DNA of 63,926 bases from an uncultured Granulosicoccaceae bacterium (lineage in GTDB: Bacteria > Pseudomonadota > Gammaproteobacteria > Granulosicoccales > Granulosicoccaceae): positions 1-63,926 of the forward strand of contig CALFCF010000083.1 in the NCBI GenBank assembly GCA_937951345.1, written 5' to 3'. Below, piece after piece: positions 16,089-27,041 of the stretch; position 1 is the first letter of the stretch, and every line of letters begins with the position of its first letter. The translations under genes and the position numbers were made by a program. Under the pieces are notes generated by a model that saw nothing but the letters and a program-made list of their open reading frames with translations, searched no databases and was not told the DNA's origin.

Positions 16089-16482
16089 GAGATAATCTCC
16101 TTGTTTTAGGTTCAAGAGAATTATCGAACGCGAGTCGGGTCAATAGCAGTGCGGTTTTACGGGGCTTTTGTATCGAAATGTACATATGACATGGCGCTAA
16201 GTTTTATCCCGAGCAAATAAAGAAACAACGATTAACACGCATTTTCATCGTGTGTTTAAACCCTGAGTTAAATATCGGTAAGTATGCTTCACGTTGATTC
16301 AGCTGCTCTGCTAGTATCCCGCCAAGTTGAATTTGACTAACAAGCTGCAGGTATACTCAGTATGTTTAGGTGTTGTTACTCGCCAACGTTTTTCAACAAC
16401 CAGCTAATATAGTCGCCTACCAAAATCAGATTTAAAATTTGGCGTCACCCTGTTGTACTCACACTGGACTATGGAGGTCGCT
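16089..16482. promoter_or_regulatory. Divergent intergenic region, protease / FG-GAP lipoprotein
   Basis: About 390 bp, AT-richer than its flanks, with no ORF I would support. It separates two divergent genes for exported proteins and so must hold two promoters. AAGGAG next to 16088 (protease) and GGAGG at 16473-16477 (lipoprotein) are clear ribosome sites; I could not assign promoters by eye. Confidence 0.4.
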
Positions 16483-18261
16483 GTGATTAATCAGGCTTTT
16501 CCCTGCACCCGAATACAACACAACTTGCAACCGGGTAATTTTTGCGGCTGTGTATGTCATTCGTTCCTACTGAATTCACGGCTTCTGCTAACTGTAATGT
16601 TGTTGTTAATTGCCGCTTGCAGTGACAGTGGCAGTTCAAGCTCCGGAGCAATTAACAATGACATGATCAATACAGGCGATACCGGCGGCCAACCGGACAC
16701 TTCGCCGGATAACATGTTCGCGTCTGAGTCGACTGATGATCAGGATGACAGTCAAGCGATGATGACAGAGACTGAACCGTCCGCTCCCGATTCAAACGCT
16801 GATGCCAGTGAAATGAGTGCCAATAACTCAGGCGGCAATACCGACAACAGTGCCTGCGAAATCTGTCAGCAGGCTACAACCGGTTTTGTGACTTATGGCT
16901 GGCCTGAAATCAATGTGGACACCTCGCCTGCAGCATTCAGTATCGGAATTTTTGAAACCGCTCCGCTTCCGGCAATCCTGCCGGACTACACCGGTGACGG
17001 GCTGGCTGAAATTTTTGCGGACTCAGCCAACATTGTTCCCGGTCGCACGGATTTATCCACTCTGGACGGCCAGCAGGCGTTCAGTCCTGATGCACGGTTA
17101 ATTCCGCTGACAGTTCTGGACTTTACCGCCGATGGAATCCCGGACAGGGTTTCGCGCAATCTGCCTCGCTCTGACACTGATGGAACACCGTTTTCCGGAT
17201 TTGAAATGCGTTTTACTCCGGGTAATACCAACGAAACCTACATCGAGCCGGACGGCAGTAATGGTGTCCGTATTCTGGGTATCGAACCGGGACATATCGG
17301 CACCAGAACTGCCATAGGAGATATCAACGGCGACGGATTCGAAGATCTGGCTATTAACCCCGCTGGGGTGGTTTCCGCGTCCGGGCGCGCGGTTCACATC
17401 CTGTTTGGCAGAAGTAACTTCCCGCAGGGTGAGTACCAGATTTCACAACTGATTCCTGATTTTGCACAACGAATTTTTCTGCCAGATGACCTGCGTGTTT
17501 TCAGTGTGCGAGGGCTTGGCGATGTAAATGGGGACGGGTTTAACGACTTTGTCATCAACACAAACAGCCAACCGGGTAGCGGCACGCAACGCAGTAACGC
17601 GTATATTATTTACGGCGATCCATCCGGTGTGCTTGGTGGTCCCGAGATCATGGATGTGGAGAGCGCAACCCAGACGGGTGCAGCGAGCACCCTGACAGAC
17701 ATACAACTTACAAACTCTGTGGGTGATATTGACGCAGATGGCGTAAACGATTTTGTTACATCCTTTAACTCAACCAGACCGTTGCAGTTGCTGCGTATGC
17801 ATGACATACCTCCCGGTAGCTCGCTGAACATTGATGATCTTGCTGATTGGATCACCCGCATAAATTCACCGATAGCGTTGCAAGCACGATCTGCCGGTGA
17901 TATTGATGCGGATGGATTTGACGATATGATTTTGAGCGAACAAGCAGGTGCAATCGTTTACGGTGGAGCACTCGCGGGTGTCGCTGAAATAGACGTAGCC
18001 AACCTACCTACCAGCCACGTACGTCTTATTAGCAGCAACACACCTATGGTTACAGGGACTGTAACTGGCTCCAACAGCGTTTTCGTCGGCTACAGCCTTG
18101 ATCAACCGGTGGGTGGTGGCGATATAAACGGGGATGGTTTCGACGATTTGGTGATCAAAGCACCGCGCTACCGGCGGGATGATGTCGGTGAACCAGATCC
18201 CGGAATGAATCCAACTCAACTGGGTGCAGATATAATTGTGCTGATCGGTAGTCCGCGATAA
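16483..18261 (+). CDS. FG-GAP repeat lipoprotein
   Basis: 592 residues from the GTG at 16483, five bases after a GGAGG ribosome site; a farther in-frame start exists at 16453. A long n-region leads to a lipobox LLLIAAC, so the protein should be lipidated at Cys. A Ser/Asp/Asn-rich linker of about 90 residues follows. The body holds repeated FG-GAP/integrin-alpha units with calcium loops: GDINGDGFEDL, GDVNGDGFNDF, GDIDADGVNDF, GDIDADGFDDM and GDINGDGFDDL. These fold as a beta-propeller used in extracellular binding. Surface location is inferred; the ligand is unknown. Confidence 0.8.
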   Translation: MINQAFPCTRIQHNLQPGNFCGCVCHSFLLNSRLLLTVMLLLIAACSDSGSSSSGAINNDMINTGDTGGQPDTSPDNMFASESTDDQDDSQAMMTETEPSAPDSNADASEMSANNSGGNTDNSACEICQQATTGFVTYGWPEINVDTSPAAFSIGIFETAPLPAILPDYTGDGLAEIFADSANIVPGRTDLSTLDGQQAFSPDARLIPLTVLDFTADGIPDRVSRNLPRSDTDGTPFSGFEMRFTPGNTNETYIEPDGSNGVRILGIEPGHIGTRTAIGDINGDGFEDLAINPAGVVSASGRAVHILFGRSNFPQGEYQISQLIPDFAQRIFLPDDLRVFSVRGLGDVNGDGFNDFVINTNSQPGSGTQRSNAYIIYGDPSGVLGGPEIMDVESATQTGAASTLTDIQLTNSVGDIDADGVNDFVTSFNSTRPLQLLRMHDIPPGSSLNIDDLADWITRINSPIALQARSAGDIDADGFDDMILSEQAGAIVYGGALAGVAEIDVANLPTSHVRLISSNTPMVTGTVTGSNSVFVGYSLDQPVGGGDINGDGFDDLVIKAPRYRRDDVGEPDPGMNPTQLGADIIVLIGSPR

Positions 18262-18498
18262 GTTTAGCTGATCACAGCTGGCCGGATCACGAGTTCCGGC
18301 TAATTGGAAATCAGTAAGACAACCAAAAGTAAATCAACCTGACGGACTATCCGTTCTGACGTCGTTCACTGATTATATTGAATGAGATTAATAATCGTTC
18401 GAAACTACAGCAAACACCTTAACCCGAAGAACATAGGCATTTTGCAGGCAGTCTGAATAAACGATTACAGACACATTCAAGGTGTTCCCTGGTAGTCG

Positions 18499-18550
18499 CC
18501 CATAAAAAAAGGCCCATAAAGGGCCTTTGAATATGATGGAGGCGGGGGGA
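18499..18550. repeat. Direct repeat of the ssrA 3' end and terminator (distal attachment site)
   Basis: 52 bp that match 22181-22232 at 50 positions (differences at 18516 and 18536). The block includes a copy of the ssrA terminator hairpin and the last 17 bp of ssrA, with the terminal CCA changed to TCA. The ssrA body is missing, so this is a displaced 3' fragment, the classic mark of site-specific integration into tmRNA. Confidence 0.85.
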
Positions 18551-18607
18551 TATTAACAGATGCGTAAGTGTTCATTTTTAATGCTAAATGTATGTTCGAT
18601 TAACTGA

Positions 18608-18958
18608 AATGGTATCGTTCCGGCGCAAAGTCGATTTGAACGTGGCAGCATACTGTCAATAGCCGGTTTGCGTGGTAACACAGAGGTGAGTGAGCAGGCA
18701 GGGCGCGTCAGTTTGCACGGCTATCGACCTTTTACAGCGGAACGGGTCGAAGCACTCGAATATCCGTTTTTTGTAAGCAGTTCGGTAGAAGCCAGTCAGG
18801 TTATTCAAGAGGATGAGCAAAACAACGTTGATGATCTGCAATTTGGTGGCAGTGTATTCGCAGCTGCTGATACACCGGTTGGGCCGCTGTTTCTCGGTTT
18901 AGGATGGGTGCAAGGAGAAGCTGTATCAGCGTTGTTGTCGTTGGGGCTGACGTTTTAG
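18608..18958 (+). pseudogene. Remnant of a patatin-like phospholipase (C-terminal barrel only)
   Basis: An open frame preceded by an in-frame stop at 18605 and lacking a good start. It encodes 116 residues that look like the end of the Omp85-type beta-barrel of PlpD/NTE-family proteins: AGLRGNTEVSEQ and HGYRPF resemble the conserved 'GYR' loop, and GPLFLGLGWVQGEAVSALL ends in LGLTF, a typical outer-membrane C-terminus. The patatin lipase domain and POTRA are missing. Its place just inside the left repeat of the ssrA island suggests it was cut during rearrangement of the island. Confidence 0.65.
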
Positions 18959-19279
18959 CGCTCATTTCCCTTCAGTGTATCTTTCGTGGATCATCCGCAA
19001 ATCAGACGCACAACGTTCTGTATTCTTGAGCTTCTGCACTGCCTGGACACCTCGAACGTACCGGTATCATTTTCTGAATTTAAACACACTCTTTTGAACT
19101 GATCTGCTGTGCAGTAAATGAGTGTTGTGAAGTCAATTACAGAATTGGACTGCGTGAGGCGTATGTACAGTTAAATCTGGAAATCTGCAAACTAGTGCCA
19201 GGTTGAATGTGATGTAGACAACCCGTCTTTAGCGCGCAGTGGTTGTATTATCGTGTCTGAATTCCATGGAATGTACACG
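18959..19279. other. Gap upstream of the Kelch gene
   Basis: About 320 bp without a supported ORF. It should hold the Kelch-gene promoter; a TATTAT hexamer at 19246-19251 is a possible -10, without a matching -35. Confidence 0.3.
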
Positions 19280-21577
19280 ATGAAAATAATAATAAAAACG
19301 ATAGGAATCCACCCGGTTTTAATTGTTGTTCTTTGTTTGTTTAGTAATCTGACTTTCGCGCAAAGTTGGGACGAGCTTGATCAACTTAATCGTTCTCGTT
19401 TTGAGGCATCCACAGTCCAGTTCAACGATGATTTGTACGTGTTTAATGGTTTCGGTCCGGGAATCAGAATCGAACCTACTGTTGAAAAGTTCAATGCCGG
19501 CACCAAACGATGGTCGGTTATCAGTGGGACCTCTGTTCAAAAAGGCAATGCAGTTACTCACAACGGAATTGTTAGAGTTGGCAATGAAGCCTGGTTGATC
19601 GGCGGACGTAAAGGTTCTCATCCGGGAAAGGTTTCCAATCAGGTTTGGAAATTTAATTTATCGAATGCGCAATGGACGCCTGGACCTGCGTTGCCAGTAC
19701 CCGTGGCTGCCGGTGGGGCTGCATTGGTTAATAACCGCATTCACTGGATAGGCGGCCTTGACCCGCAAGCCAAATGCGATGTTGGGCATCACTATGTCTA
19801 CGACCTGAGTCTACCTACGGCTGGTTGGCAGAACATCACCAACGTCGCCAGAATGCCACAGCCACGTAACCACTTTTCTACGGTAGTTCATAACGGTTTA
19901 ATCTATACAATCGGTGGACAATTTGGCCATGACAATTGTCCGGGCAAGAACACACAAGATACTAATCTGGTTCATGTGTTTAACCCGAAGAATAATACCT
20001 GGACACAAAAAGCAAGCTTGCCTACCAAGCAGTCTCATGCGGAACCGTCTTCGTTTGTTTATGGTGGTGCAATTTACGTTGCAGGTGGTGAGACCAAGGG
20101 TAACAAGATATTTCGCTATAACCCGAGAAACAATGCCTGGAAAATAGTCGCTGATCTGCCAGAGACCGTAGTCGCACCGGTAGCCAGAGTGATAGATGAT
20201 CGATTGATTGTAGCTGCGGGAGGTGCACCCAATGTTCACTCACCCTCGAATCGTACTCGCTCTATTGCCGTAGCGCCGTTGTTGTTGCCGGATGCGGCTG
20301 TAGCGAGTAACGGGAACAGTGGCAATAACTCAAACAATAACAGCTCAAATACACCTGCACCGGAGACTCAAGCCGAACCCGAGGTAATTCCACCACAACC
20401 TGAACCTGTGGTAGCTCCTCCGCAACCCGAGCCTGTTGCAACTTCATTTACTCTTGCGCCGGGTGAAGCTGTAATAAGTCTCGAAGCTGAATACTTTGAT
20501 ACGAATACAAGTACTCCTATTCACAGTTGGGTCACCACAAATAGAGCGGGTGCCAGCAATGACGCTGCGGTAGTTACCACGCCAGACATTGGTGATTTAG
20601 CAGTAACTGCGACCGGTTCAGCGGAACTTTCATATTTTGCGTTGTTTGACCGCCCGGGTACCTGGTATCTATGGGTTCGGGGTTGGGGTGACACCAATGC
20701 CGCTGGCGAAGGAAGAAGCGATAGCTTGCACGCTGGACTTAACGGCCAGGTTCAGCAGTCGGCTGATGAAATAGATCAGTTTCCGGTAGGTTGGCACTGG
20801 TCCAACAGTACGCGCGACACCAGAAGAGCGACTATCGCTATACCAGCTGCCGGTTTGCACGTTGTGAATCTTTGGATGCGTGAAGATGGATTGGCTGTTG
20901 ATAAAATCATACTGACTACAGATGCAGTCTATGTTCCGACGGGTTCCGGACCAACACACGATAACGGTGGTTCTCCGGGAGGCGGCGGAGCCTCCAGCGA
21001 TACAACGTCTGACGATACACCTTCAGGCGACACAGCCTTAGAGGATACGCTCTCAGAGGATACGCTCTCAGAGGACACGGTTTCAGAGGACACGGTCTCA
21101 GAAGATACGGTCTCAGAGGACACGGTCTCAGAGGAAATTGTCATCTTAGAAGTAAGCCCGAGCGATTCAGACGATAACCAGGCACCGCAGCCCATTCAGG
21201 TTGCCGATACAGACGGCGCTGTCAACACGGAGGATTCGGATGCTGAAGGCAATAGATTGCCTGAAATAGCTGGTGATGGGGAGACTGACATTCCGAATCT
21301 GCTTAATACAAATATGGACGGGATCCTGAGTGCTCAGGAAACAAATGTTTCGGTCGTGGCTGATGCGGTAACCGCAGATGTAGTGGGAACCGACTTGGGC
21401 GGATCGGGTTTTGGTTGTTCTGTGTTCAATGGTAGTGTTAGTGCTAGTGAAAAAACGGTTGATCCTTTATTTCTGGGAATGCTTTTGTTGAGTAGTTTTT
21501 GGTTGAGTATCAAGCGCGCCCGGCGTGCCAAACTTTGCATTTCAATGGGTGTCGATACAAAACGGGTCGGTATATAG
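19280..21577 (+). CDS. Kelch-repeat and carbohydrate-binding surface protein with C-terminal anchor
   Basis: 765 residues. A signal peptide (ends NLTFAQ) is followed by a Kelch beta-propeller, residues about 30-330, with repeats such as EAWLIGGRKG, NRIHWIGGLD, GLIYTIGGQFG and AIYVAGGETKG. A Pro-rich linker precedes a CBM-like domain: ISLEAEYFD, TWYLWVRGWG, VVNLWMREDGLAVDKIIL. Next come seven 5-residue (S/L)EDT(V/L)-type repeats, then a tail GFGCSVFNG, DPLFLGMLLLSSFW and basic residues, which looks like a C-terminal sorting or anchoring signal. I expect a cell-surface glycan-binding protein. It lies inside the ssrA-bounded island. A start at 19271 is also possible. Confidence 0.75.
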   Translation: MKIIIKTIGIHPVLIVVLCLFSNLTFAQSWDELDQLNRSRFEASTVQFNDDLYVFNGFGPGIRIEPTVEKFNAGTKRWSVISGTSVQKGNAVTHNGIVRVGNEAWLIGGRKGSHPGKVSNQVWKFNLSNAQWTPGPALPVPVAAGGAALVNNRIHWIGGLDPQAKCDVGHHYVYDLSLPTAGWQNITNVARMPQPRNHFSTVVHNGLIYTIGGQFGHDNCPGKNTQDTNLVHVFNPKNNTWTQKASLPTKQSHAEPSSFVYGGAIYVAGGETKGNKIFRYNPRNNAWKIVADLPETVVAPVARVIDDRLIVAAGGAPNVHSPSNRTRSIAVAPLLLPDAAVASNGNSGNNSNNNSSNTPAPETQAEPEVIPPQPEPVVAPPQPEPVATSFTLAPGEAVISLEAEYFDTNTSTPIHSWVTTNRAGASNDAAVVTTPDIGDLAVTATGSAELSYFALFDRPGTWYLWVRGWGDTNAAGEGRSDSLHAGLNGQVQQSADEIDQFPVGWHWSNSTRDTRRATIAIPAAGLHVVNLWMREDGLAVDKIILTTDAVYVPTGSGPTHDNGGSPGGGGASSDTTSDDTPSGDTALEDTLSEDTLSEDTVSEDTVSEDTVSEDTVSEEIVILEVSPSDSDDNQAPQPIQVADTDGAVNTEDSDAEGNRLPEIAGDGETDIPNLLNTNMDGILSAQETNVSVVADAVTADVVGTDLGGSGFGCSVFNGSVSASEKTVDPLFLGMLLLSSFWLSIKRARRAKLCISMGVDTKRVGI
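21029..21133 (+). repeat. Seven tandem 15-bp coding repeats (SEDTV units)
   Basis: Seven in-frame 15-bp units, consensus GACACGGTCTCAGAG, encode an acidic Ser-Glu-Asp-Thr-Val stalk before the C-terminal anchor of the Kelch protein. The middle copies differ by one or two mostly silent bases, pointing to recent expansion. Length changes would not break the frame. Confidence 0.92.
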
Positions 21578-22180
21578 TGTTCTTTGTAACCCTTCTGTTA
21601 TAACCTGGTGTAGCTGCGTCTACTTTTGTAGTTCGCTGCTGCAGTCTTCATACTGAGCATTTTCAAGGTCGCCGTTGTGACCAAGAACCTTTCATCACTA
21701 AAAAATACTCGCAGCCAGAAGATCCTGAGTATAGAGCTGATAACGGGGCAAACGGCAGCTCTGTGTCAATTGATTCAACATAGCTTTCAATCTCTGCCGC
21801 CAGTGATTGTCCATAGCGAGTTACTTCTGATGCATCGTCAACTTTGCGCACGTTCCGGTTACTGTTGTCTGTAAAAAAGGATGGATCTTTCATTTTTTTA
21901 AAGTTTGTATGATTAATAGTGTTGCTTAAAGTAAGTCATTTGTCATTGATTCAGTTAAATTCGTAATAGAGTTATTCCGATTTTTTAAGTGCGATATATC
22001 GTGTCCACCACAAATGACGGCAAGAGTTTTCGTTCTGGGCATAGTCGCAATAACTCGCATAGCGCAATAACTGCAACACAAGGACGCCCGTAAACTGACG
22101 AATGAGAAATTTCTAACAACTGTTTAATAGAATGCGTCAATAAATCATTTCACTAGCATTCAAGGAATACCTAACACCCA
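21578..22180. other. Mostly noncoding island end, AT-rich
   Basis: About 600 bp between the Kelch gene and the right ssrA repeat. It contains one doubtful small ORF on the minus strand (21663-21893) and otherwise no coding signal. The AT-rich, gene-poor character differs from the core genome to the right and fits a decayed island end. Confidence 0.45.
21663..21893 (-). CDS. Doubtful small ORF, 76 residues, unknown
   Basis: Starts MKDPSFF after an A-rich stretch without a good ribosome site. The segment EVTRYGQSLAAEIESYVESI could be an amphipathic helix. I recognise no family. It lies in the gene-poor end of the ssrA-linked island and may be a fragment of a lost gene or a chance ORF. Confidence 0.25.
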   Translation of the reverse strand: MKDPSFFTDNSNRNVRKVDDASEVTRYGQSLAAEIESYVESIDTELPFAPLSALYSGSSGCEYFLVMKGSWSQRRP

Positions 22181-22232
22181 CCCATAAAAAAAGGCCCGTA
22201 AAGGGCCTTTGAATATGGTGGAGGCGGGGGGA
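22181..22232. repeat. Direct repeat at the ssrA 3' end (proximal attachment site)
   Basis: Partner of the block at 18499-18550 (50 of 52 positions identical). Here it includes the intact CCA end of ssrA and continues into the complete gene, so this end of the island preserves a functional tmRNA. Confidence 0.85.
22186..22210 (-). terminator. ssrA intrinsic terminator
   Basis: Read on the minus strand, AAAGGCCC, a TTTAC loop and GGGCCTTT form an 8-bp stem followed by further T residues (seven in the tract including the stem end). It starts six bases after the tmRNA 3' end. A near-identical copy lies within the repeat at 18499-18550. Confidence 0.85.
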
Positions 22233-22587
22233 ATCGAACCCCCGTCCGAAAGCACTCTGCCATTGGTACTACATGCTTAGTTTCGTCATTGGCTTTAGCG
22301 TTACGGCACCCGACGAACAGGGTACTGGTCAGCGATCCCACTTTTGTTTAACCGCCTGATGCTAGGGAAGCTCCGGCAGCGATCCTGTGGCAGTTGCCCC
22401 GGGGATGAAACACAGGCATGACGCCCCCGGGTAACACTGTCTAAAAAGACGTAATAGGTCTAATTATGCAGCGAGTGCGTAGTTGTCGTCGTTGGCAACT
22501 ATAAATTATCAGCTGGTTTAACGAGGTAATCTGATCCTCGGCATGCACCTCAGGGTTCGCCACTCCCGTCGAAGCCATGTCGCCCCC
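22216..22587 (-). ncRNA. ssrA: Transfer-messenger RNA (tmRNA)
   Basis: 372 nt on the minus strand. The 5' end GGGGGCGACATGGCTTCGAC pairs with the 3' end CGCCTCC-ACCA to make the tRNA-like acceptor stem. The T arm GGGGGTTCGATTCCCCC is clear. The tag reading frame (22496 down to 22464) encodes ANDDNYALAA then TAA, close to the E. coli tag. tmRNA with SmpB rescues stalled ribosomes and tags the nascent chain for proteolysis. The 3' end is the target of the flanking island. Confidence 0.97.
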
Positions 22588-23129
22588 GGAAACTGGTGTA
22601 CCTGGATATAAAGGTAGTCTTTTTTTCAACCGGTATTGAACAAATCAGATGCAGCTTTCGCTGCAATCTGCTGCCGGTTGTGCGCTACCTCAGTTAAGTA
22701 TGGCGACTGGTCAGGGTATTTACAACACCCTGTACGCGACGGAGCTGCTGACTGGTCCACTTAAATGACGGCATCGGCGGCGAATTTCACTGAATTGTAA
22801 GGCCGGGCGCGGGTGAACGAACGATAGTGCCTGGGGCAGGGCGAGCAGTTTTCCCTCTAAGTCTGTGTCCTTCAGGTGCTCTCAACCTGCGATTGCAGGG
22901 CGTGAGGTGTCTTTGCCTGCGACCTATATACATGCGGGACGTAACCAACGTGAATAGATTTACCGAATGGGTATAAGTGCTTCACCAAGCCAAGTATAAT
23001 TAACGGCAATCTATGTGCGGGCGCACTACCTGCCGGAATGCTTGTTGGCTGGCCGACCGGTTTACGGGTGTCGAACGTTACATATCGAACGTTACAACTG
23101 TTTCCCTGATAACCCTAGATTATTCTCTG
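22588..23129. promoter_or_regulatory. ssrA promoter side and purL leader region
   Basis: A 540-bp gap between divergent ssrA and purL. A hairpin lies at 22646-22670 (CAGAT-GCAGC paired with GCTGC-A-ATCTG). TATAAT at 22995-23000 is a good -10 for purL, though no clear -35 stands 17 bp upstream. If used, the purL leader is about 120 nt and includes the 14-bp repeat at 23071-23098. Confidence 0.45.
23071..23098 (+). repeat. Two tandem copies of TCGAACGTTACA in the purL leader
   Basis: TCGAACGTTACA occurs at 23071-23082 and 23085-23096, a 14-bp period. Each copy contains the palindrome AACGTT. It lies 32 bp before the chosen purL start, downstream of the candidate promoter, where a repressor or leader-RNA element could act. 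It does not match the PurR consensus well. Confidence 0.6.
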
Positions 23130-26100
23130 ATGCTGATATTTTCCGGTGGTCCGGCGCTCTCTGATTTCAGGTTGCAGCGAATCCGGCAGGCACTCGAGCG
23201 CATCACTCCCCAAATTACGAAGTTAACGGCAGTTGACCGCTATTTTCTGGTCGCAGATGGTGCGCTGGATAAGGATGCGACCACCCGCTTGTGCGACATT
23301 CTGTCGGCCAGTGAGTTGCCATCGAATAGTACGTCACGCACAGACCACCAACTACAGCGCCTGGTCATACCCAGAATCGGCACACTCTCGCCGTGGGCGT
23401 CCAAGTCTCTCGACATCCTGCACAACTGTGGCTTCGAGTCTGTACGGTCGGTTGAACGCGGCACATTATGGTGTATCGATTTGCCGGGCACCCCGTCAGC
23501 GGATGTTGTCGCCGAAATTGATGCTCTGTTACACGACCGTATGACACAGTCGGTCGTCGATAACGCTGATGCAACAGCGTTAAGTGCTCAGTTGTTCAGT
23601 GAAGCCTCACCTGCGCCACTGGTGCATATCGATCTGTTAAAAGATGGCACACAGGCATTGGCCGCAGCCAATGAATCGTTGGGTCTGGCGTTGTCAGATG
23701 ACGAAATCGATTATCTGGCAGAGAGCTTCACAGCGTTGAAGCGCAATCCGACCGATGCAGAACTGATGATGTTCGCACAGGCGAATTCGGAGCATTGCCG
23801 GCACAAGATATTTAATGCCAGCTGGACTATCAACGGTGAGCAGCAAGAGCAATCGCTGTTTGCGATGATCCGGAACACACACGAAAAACATCCCGGTGGT
23901 GTACTTTCTGCCTACAGCGATAACGCCGCAGTCATTACCGGTTACCAGAGTGCACGTTTTATCTGCCAGCCGGATGGTGAGTACCGGCCGCTTGATGAGC
24001 CATCGCATATCCAGATCAAGGTTGAAACCCACAACCACCCGACCGCGATTGCACCGTTCCCCGGTGCAGCAACCGGCTCTGGTGGTGAAATTCGTGATGA
24101 AGGGGCGACCGGTAACGGTGCTAAACCGAAAGCCGGTCTGTGTGGTTTTTCAGTTTCGAACCTGGAGATCCCTGAATTAACGCAACCCTGGGAGACGGCT
24201 TTTGGTAAGCCGGAGCGCCTGGCCAGTGCGCTGGACATCATGTTGGACGGGCCGATCGGTGCGGCCTCTTTTAACAATGAATTTGGCCGGCCCAATCTCA
24301 CCGGCTATTTCCGTACCTACGCGCAGCAGACAGGCGAGGATGCGAATTCTATTCGCGGTTATCACAAACCCATCATGCTGGCCGGTGGTTTAGGGGCCAT
24401 TCGTGGTTGCAATATCGCTAAAAAACCTGCCACTTCAGGTGCCGCACTGATCGTGTTGGGTGGTCCTGCCATGCTGATTGGTCTTGGTGGAGGTGCAGCA
24501 TCATCGCTCGCCAGTGGCGATAGTGATGAGTCGCTCGACTTTGCATCAGTGCAACGGGGCAACGCTGAAATGCAGCGCCGCTGTCAGGAAGTGATTGACC
24601 GCTGTGTGGCAATGGGAGACAGCAGTCCGATTCTGTCGATGCATGATGTCGGTGCTGGCGGGTTATCCAATGCGCTGCCGGAACTTGTCAACGATGCCGG
24701 GTTGGGTGGTGATTTCCAGTTGCGCGATGTGCCTAATGCTGATCGTGGTATGTCACCCATGCAAATCTGGTGTAACGAAGCGCAGGAACGATATGTTCTT
24801 ATTATCGACAATGACCGCCTTGAAGAGTTTTTGTCTCTGTGTCGTCGGGAACGCTGTGAAGTGGCTGTTGTTGGACAAACCACCGAAGACAAACAACTCC
24901 TGGTACGCGACAGTGAATTTGACAATAACGCGGTTGATATGCCACTTGATACGTTGCTGGGTAAGCCACCACGTATGCAACGCAATGCAACGCGTCACTC
25001 GGCGGCTGCCAACGCATTTAATACCAGCGGTATCGAATTGAATGATGCGATCGAGCGTGTATTGCAGGTACCGTCGGTTGCGTGCAAAAACTTCCTGATA
25101 ACCATTGGCGACCGCTCGATTACCGGACAGGTGGTGCGTGACCAGATGGTCGGACCCTGGCAAGTGCCGGTTGCTGATGTTGCGGTTACTGCCAGTGACT
25201 ACACAGGCCGTACCGGTGAAGCAATGGCAATGGGGGAGCGTACACCCGTAGCCGTGGTTAACGCGCCGGCTTCCGGCAGGCTTGCGATTGGTGAGGCACT
25301 TACCAATATCGCTGCCGCGCAGATTGGCGATATCGGCAATGTCAGTTTGTCAGCGAATTGGATGGCGGCGGCTGATAACCCGGGCGATGACGCAGACCTT
25401 TACGACACTGTACAGGCGGTCGGTATGGATCTGGCGCCAGCTTTGGGGATTGCAATTCCTGTTGGCAAAGATTCGCTATCGATGCAGACGCAATGGCAGC
25501 AGGATGGCAAGACGCGCAAAGTTACGGCGCCATTGTCATTGATTATTTCTGCTTTTGCGCCGGTTAAAGACATCTACCAGACACTAACCCCGCAATTGCG
25601 TACTGATCTTGGTGACAGCGAAATACTGTTGGTTGATCTCGGCTTTGGTAAGAACCGCCTGGCCGGCTCCGCACTGGCTCAAGCTTATAACGCTGTGGGT
25701 GATGAATCTCCGGATGTTGATGATCCGGAAAACCTAAAAAATCTTTTTCAGGCTGTGCAGCAATTGTCTGCGCAGAACATGCTGCTCGCGTACCACGATC
25801 GTTCGGATGGAGGGTTACTCGCGGCGCTTGCGGAAATGAGCTTTGCCGGTAATGTCGGTTTGGATGTCAGTCTGAATAGTCTCGGTCCTGATCCTGTAGC
25901 GGCTCTGTTCAATGAAGAGTTGGGTGTGTTGTTGCAAATTCGCACACGCCAGTATGCAGAGGTGATGCATGTGCTCGAATCGCTCGGTCTCGGAGATGGT
26001 GTTCATACAATTGCGGGTCTGAACGACACGCTTCAGTTTAGTGTTCAGCACCAGAGTGATTTACTGTGTCAAAAACCTGTACACGAATTAAAAGGTTTGT

Positions 26101-27041
26101 GGTGGAAAACCTCATGGCAAATGCAGCGCCTGCGCGACAATCCGGATTGTGCTGATCAGGAATATGAGGATGCTATTAACCCGGAGAACCCCGGCTTACG
26201 CTCACAGTTGACGTTCGATCCGCATCTGAATGTTGCTGAAAAAGTTATTCGTAGGGCGCTGAAATCATCGCCTGTCGGAAAACCACGAGTCGCGATACTG
26301 CGTGAGCAAGGTGTTAATGGTCAGCAGGAGATGGCTGCAGCTTTTGATGCAGCAGGTTTCCAGGCTGTTGATGTGCACATGAGTGATCTGATCAGTGGTG
26401 AGCAAACGCTCGGCTCATTCGCCGGAATAGCGGCATGTGGTGGATTCTCTTACGGCGACGTGATGGGTGGCGGTGGAGGGTGGGCAAATTCAATTCGCTA
26501 CAACACGCGTGCTTTTGATGAATTTTCAGCCTTTTTTGAACGCCCGGATGCGTTCGGTTTGGGAGTTTGCAATGGCTGTCAGATGATGTCGCGCTTACGT
26601 GACATTATCCCGGGAGCACAGCACTGGCCATCGTTCGAGCGTAATCTTTCGGAGCAATTTGAAGCGCGTTTTGTAACGGTCGAAGTATTCAAGTCCGAAT
26701 CGGTATTTCTGAAAGCGATGCACGGATCACGCATACCGGTTGCTTTGGCACACGGCGAAGGTCGGGCGGTTTTTGAAGACGATGAGCGGGTTGCTGATGC
26801 TAACGTTGTGCTCGCCTATGTCGACAACGCTGGAAATCTTGCGGAGCGTTATCCGGCGAACCCGAATGGTTCACCCTATGGTGTCACTGGTGTCTGTTCC
26901 GATGACGGACGTTTTACGATTATGATGCCGCACCCGGAACGCGTGTTCCGTTCGGTGACTAATTCCTGGGCGCCGGAACAATGGGGAGAACGCGGCCCCT
27001 GGCTGCGAATGTTCGAGAATGCGCGAGTAGCGGTTGGTTAG
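23130..27041 (+). CDS. purL: Phosphoribosylformylglycinamidine synthase
   Basis: 1303 residues from the ATG at 23130, where similarity to PurL begins ([13 protein letters not shown]); the open frame extends 39 codons upstream without family similarity. This is the long, fused PurL of gammaproteobacteria: an N-terminal domain, two AIRS-like synthase halves ([64 protein letters not shown]) and a C-terminal glutaminase with the nucleophile in [10 protein letters not shown] and MPHPERVFR. It makes FGAM from FGAR, glutamine and ATP in purine synthesis. Length is close to the E. coli enzyme. Confidence 0.96.

Follow-up and report, generated by a model that had tools for sequence, protein, structure and literature searches.

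Tandem islands at ssrA are common in Dehalococcoides, and 15 of the ssrA islands described there lack integration modules and have been read as elements that may be cis-mobilizable (McMurdie et al. 2011, PMC3146451). The concept of the cis-mobilizable element (CIME) is defined in PMC5704250. The Islander rule locates the endpoints of an island by an intact target gene on one side and a displaced 3′ fragment on the other (PMC4383910). Here we compare with these systems a stretch of ~3.7 kb next to the tmRNA gene in a marine-type bacterium, an uncultured member of the Granulosicoccaceae, within a window (the whole stretch of DNA that was analysed) of 63,926 nucleotides. Read from left to right, this stretch contains the end of a broken gene, then a complete gene and gene-poor DNA. 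We regard it as a decayed, CIME-like ssrA island that has lost its integrase and retains a surface-protein gene as cargo, a reading to which we assign a probability of about 0.8.

Paired ssrA tails beside the tmRNA gene

The segment is bounded by two direct repeats, at 18499-18550 and 22181-22232, which a repeat search showed to be identical at 50 of 52 bases (96%) with a spacing of 3682 bp, just as an earlier sequence-only reading of this DNA had described them. Paired tails of this sort are the trace that mobile islands usually leave. Location of the tmRNA by ARAGORN and Rfam (RF00023, 201.5 bits over the full model) identified the right, ssrA-proximal repeat (22181-22232, minus strand) as the last 17 bp of ssrA followed by 35 bp of downstream terminator. 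The sole tmRNA gene, complete and encoding the tag ANDDNYALAA, lies on the minus strand at 22216-22587 and adjoins the right repeat only, as that reading had also proposed. This gene would be the integration target, and the right repeat the att-like end that restores it. The left, distal repeat (18499-18550, minus strand), likewise att-like, would be a displaced ssrA 3′ end with the same terminator; it has CCATCA at the position of CCACCA in the ssrA tail. A terminator scan placed the intrinsic ssrA terminator stem-loop at 22190-22210 and its second copy at 18508-18528, both on the minus strand, and the duplication at 96% includes the terminator itself, beyond the ssrA tail.

Allowing up to 3 mismatches, a scan of the window detected the 17-mer of the ssrA tail at these two sites only (chance mean 0.12), with no third copy. 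Elsewhere in the 4.5-Mb genome the tail was found, at up to 2 mismatches, at a single 2-mismatch site on contig C10. The 26-mer across the tail/terminator junction occurs twice in the whole genome, and the 52-bp repeat is unique to its two sites in the window. A left repeat that was a conserved stand-alone element unrelated to ssrA, which had been named as an observation that would overturn the island reading, was not seen, there being no such copies elsewhere. For two copies agreeing at 50/52 bases within the window, the rough expectation is ~1e-18. The source is a MAG contig; since the longest exact run common to both repeats is 19 bp, misassembly at an exact repeat is unlikely. Similarity between the flanks of the repeats collapses beyond 52 bp, and on this ground we reject a local tandem duplication. 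A weak possible extension of the conserved block by ~27 bp (CATTCAAGG, at 18474 and 22157) was spotted post hoc, with a shuffle p of ~0.002-0.03 depending on length and of ~0.002 in a 60-bp comparison.

Contents of the segment

The broken gene end (18608-18958, plus strand) is a pseudogene: of a gene for a patatin-type phospholipase barrel it retains a 3′ fragment of ~116 codons, the upstream part being missing. It shares 76% DNA identity over 350 bp with a gene on contig C36 of the same genome (G000:C36), and 82% amino acid identity with the C-terminus of the full-length protein encoded there (Patatin, PF01734), so the truncated phospholipase barrel predicted from the letters alone was correctly recognised. 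The complete gene adjoins proS on C36, and the same arrangement is found in G001. Differences between the fragment and the complete gene are mostly silent (dN ~0.1, dS 1.0-2.3), which suggests that the fragment derives from a long-working gene that was cut later. Judged by its dS >1, the scrap is no recent copy of the chromosomal gene.

The intact gene (19280-21577, plus strand, in an open reading frame spanning 19253-21577) encodes an exported protein with an N-terminal hydrophobic signal-like segment, Kelch repeats, a GH115_C-type domain, SEDT repeats, a C-terminal hydrophobic stretch and a basic tail. Pfam matches to Kelch (1e-28 to 4e-30) and GH115_C (5.7e-12) upheld the earlier assignment as a Kelch/CBM protein, and these domain matches would be consistent with glycan binding. 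The match to JDVT-CTERM is weak and sub-threshold. The C-terminal region (window 21203-21545) is 33-49% like the C-terminus of a 1729-aa protein of G000:C72, and also like proteins of G002 and G001; this region is possibly a surface-sorting signal. In a tree, the window protein clusters (99/95 support) with sequences from a different genus of the family, apart from the same-genus copies (G001). Horizontal acquisition of the Kelch/GH115_C gene is thereby suggested, and forms part of the explanation that we prefer.

Gene-poor DNA totals ~0.9 kb of the segment, between the patatin fragment and the Kelch gene (18959-19252) and adjoining ssrA (21578-22180). A search of 48 family genomes found no match to either stretch. 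The second lies at the position of the integrase in intact ssrA islands of relatives, and contains no integrase trace. Open reading frames, Pfam and tblastn revealed no integration or transfer genes between the repeats: no open reading frame gave an integrase match in Pfam, and tblastn with the ssrA-linked or island integrases of three relatives found no remnant, in agreement with the earlier statement that no integrase is visible. The combination of an integrase with a relaxase or conjugation genes, which characterises ICEs and IMEs, is absent from the segment. No phage or plasmid DNA matches were found, and viral contigs scanned for the tail-plus-terminator sequence gave no match. The shift in base composition is slight (47.0% vs 50.6% GC), and we count it against the island reading.

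The ssrA locus in Granulosicoccaceae

The 3′ side of ssrA is demonstrably an integration hotspot in the family, on the evidence of ssrA-linked integrases, a 92.5-kb ICE-like island with an empty site, and the conservation of purL. The latter, the fixed flank on the ssrA 5′ side (23013-27041 in the window, plus strand), is common to 21 of 25 genomes. Coding segments on the 3′ side, by contrast, are in common with at most 3 of 19 other genomes, and this holds for every genome; with all genomes variable there, no conserved order is left for an insertion to interrupt. The bases and terminator that follow the CCA of ssrA differ in nearly every relative, same-genus G002 included, and a family-wide search for the window terminator beside ssrA recovered only the two window copies and one 3-mismatch terminator in G042. 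Many ssrA-bearing contigs break off shortly past the 3′ end, which fits a variable site. In G023 and G061, tyrosine integrases with Arm-DNA-bind domains begin 122 bp and 151 bp after ssrA, respectively. An integrase on contig C55 of the window's own genome, 40% identical to the ssrA-linked integrase of G061, adjoins a tRNA-Arg and so gives no evidence of an ssrA-specific enzyme. In G004 and G013, a second copy of the tail probably reflects overlapping contigs and was left out, since ssrA itself stands upstream of the copy.

Insertions at this site are also seen in relatives. In G062 (L124/L125; G062:C10:166179-259115), a single contig has two exact ssrA tails separated by 92.5 kb. The region between them encodes a T4SS coupling protein at its ssrA end and, immediately before the distal tail copy, a tyrosine integrase; we consider this region a putative ICE at ssrA. 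DNA past its distal tail matches the DNA that follows ssrA in G022 (91% over 65 bp, then 76-78% over ~4 kb), identifying G022 as the empty site of the G062 island. In G050 (L123; G050:C211, 6756-8335), an insertion of 1.58 kb without an integrase holds one gene, for an OmpA-domain protein, and the stop codon of this gene directly adjoins a duplicated ssrA tail of ~80 bp. The window structure therefore belongs to a pattern present elsewhere in the family. A distal ssrA-tail copy of 17-19 bp was also found in G054 (L128/L129), where the DNA after ssrA and that after the distal copy, on another contig, are 75-94% similar, suggesting stacked related elements or a strain mixture.

The left neighbour of the distal repeat, an FG-GAP repeat protein gene (16453-18261, plus strand), is possibly part of an older element, and no ortholog was found in the relatives searched. 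Further components of the left flank, a trypsin/two-component cluster, are present in G016 on another contig than ssrA. No relative has the left flank of the window adjoining ssrA, and the empty site sought among relatives for the exact window insertion, in which the sequence left of 18499 was predicted to join ssrA directly, was not found. With this qualification, and those of the terminator common to both ends and of a glycan-binding role drawn from domain matches, the original proposal of a relic ssrA island with surface-protein cargo and no integrase is the best fit, and the hotspot in the family favours it. The opposite outcome, relatives sharing the gene content between the repeats without empty-site variants, was not encountered either, as no relative has that content.

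Elsewhere in the window, at 1836-1882, a near-perfect palindrome of 45 bp (DNA fold z -8.0) is flanked by a MarR-type gene and a ComP/DUS-receptor-like pilin gene. Other contigs of the genome hold several dispersed copies (88-100%), and shorter matches occur in G001 and G003. The palindrome resembles elements of the REP or MITE type.

Origin of the segment and its place among known islands

We infer that the segment arose by the action of an integrase. A mobile island would have entered the ssrA 3′ end through site-specific recombination within the final ~17 bp, supplying a replacement ssrA tail and terminator, the present right repeat, that kept the tmRNA functional. The displaced original tail would have moved to the far end of the island as the left repeat. 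Later deletions would have removed the integrase and most other island genes, leaving an integrase-less remnant of 3.6 kb with the intact Kelch/GH115_C gene and the broken phospholipase gene. The segment is probably no longer self-mobile; if its repeats are still recognised, an incoming element with an ssrA-specific integrase could mobilise it, either by excision in trans or by taking it along in cis.

Both ends of the segment carry the same terminator, unlike those of the G062 and G050 insertions, where the terminators differ, so a single simple insertion is not the sole reading, and the left repeat may mark where the segment meets an older element instead of the original chromosomal boundary. 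In this variant of the island explanation, which we hold to be possible but rather doubtful, two related elements would have inserted successively at ssrA. The left repeat would then join a younger remnant (18551-22180) to an older one left of 18499 (e.g., the FG-GAP gene), the true far boundary being eroded or further left. Such accretion would account for duplication of the terminator along with the ssrA tail at 96%, and for similarity that may run ~27 bp further (local p ~0.002, 60-bp comparison). The orphan status of the FG-GAP gene among the relatives searched and the similar DNA at the two tails of G054 are consistent with it, and tandem ssrA islands have a precedent in Dehalococcoides (PMC3146451). 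However, a third ssrA tail (up to 3 mismatches) is absent from the window, the ~27-bp extension is weak and was noted post hoc, and an element already carrying the terminator in its attP would give an identical picture.

Two further explanations dispense with an insertion by integrase. The absence of an integrase from the segment, and the presence there of a scrap resembling another chromosomal gene, could point to a copy-number or rearrangement scar, in which illegitimate or homologous recombination or a local duplication doubled the ssrA tail. We judge this very improbable: local tandem duplication should extend similarity to both sides of the repeat, which instead collapses after 52 bp; the break lies inside the final 17 bp of ssrA, and the tail copy of G054 is similarly 17-19 bp long; the patatin scrap differs from its chromosomal counterpart by a dS >1 and is not recent; and the family hotspot favours integrase action. 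Least credible of all is that ssrA ancestrally had the Kelch gene as its 3′ neighbour, the left repeat being incidental. This idea draws on G041, of another genus (L135; G041:C174, 6009-10298), where a gene for a 1287-aa Kelch/triple GH115_C-like protein lies 50 bp past ssrA and is also convergent with it. But the G041 gene and the window gene belong to different clades, G041 has a closer homolog of the window gene on another contig, a Kelch gene beside ssrA was seen in none of the other relatives examined, and the chance expectation of an incidental repeat is negligible. On the Kelch tree we reject this explanation.

On the preferred reading, that of a relic island, the segment is an ordinary kind of mobile DNA in an understudied family. 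ssrA is documented here, with a clear filled/empty pair, as an integration hotspot in the largely uncultured Granulosicoccaceae, and the findings suggest that a surface-protein gene was delivered at this site. A more speculative idea, which we think improbable, is that ssrA serves as a docking site for tiny integrase-less cassettes with one envelope or surface gene each (Kelch here, OmpA-domain in G050), with resident or passing elements supplying the ssrA-specific integrases that would shuffle them in trans. If this were true, docking cassettes would constitute a site-specific system of surface-protein variation. The importance of the locus would rise only if such short integrase-less segments turned out to be exchanged as units.

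Like a CIME, the segment has attL- and attR-like ends (the 50/52 repeat with the ssrA 3′ end) and no integration or transfer genes. A CIME is moved only by another element and descends from an ICE or IME; no ICE or IME backbone genes are left in the segment, an ICE-like element does occur at ssrA in G062, and the segment is best termed CIME-like. In Islander terms, it has the intact tmRNA gene and the displaced 3′ fragment, in direct orientation, of a tRNA/tmRNA island, but not the internal tyrosine integrase; we therefore call it a CIME-looking relic and not a proven CIME. Within the family, G062 and G050 share with the window the same target gene and the same tail duplication, and the G050 insertion is likewise short, devoid of an integrase and limited to one envelope-protein gene. 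In contrast to the window, G062 retains its integrase and conjugation genes, and G050 repeats ~80 bp of ssrA. As in the ssrA islands of Dehalococcoides, many of which lack an integration module, stack in tandem and bear adaptive cargo, the segment lies downstream of ssrA, with the gene itself as one boundary and a short direct repeat of the ssrA 3′ end as the other. The Dehalococcoides islands use a serine recombinase (DsiB), whereas a tyrosine integrase is likely for the window, judging from its relatives; their cargo is reductive dehalogenases as against one surface protein, and their repeat is 20 bp as against 52 bp, terminator included. On the preferred reading, the segment would thus be of a well-known kind, with the integrase-less ssrA islands of Dehalococcoides as its parallel.
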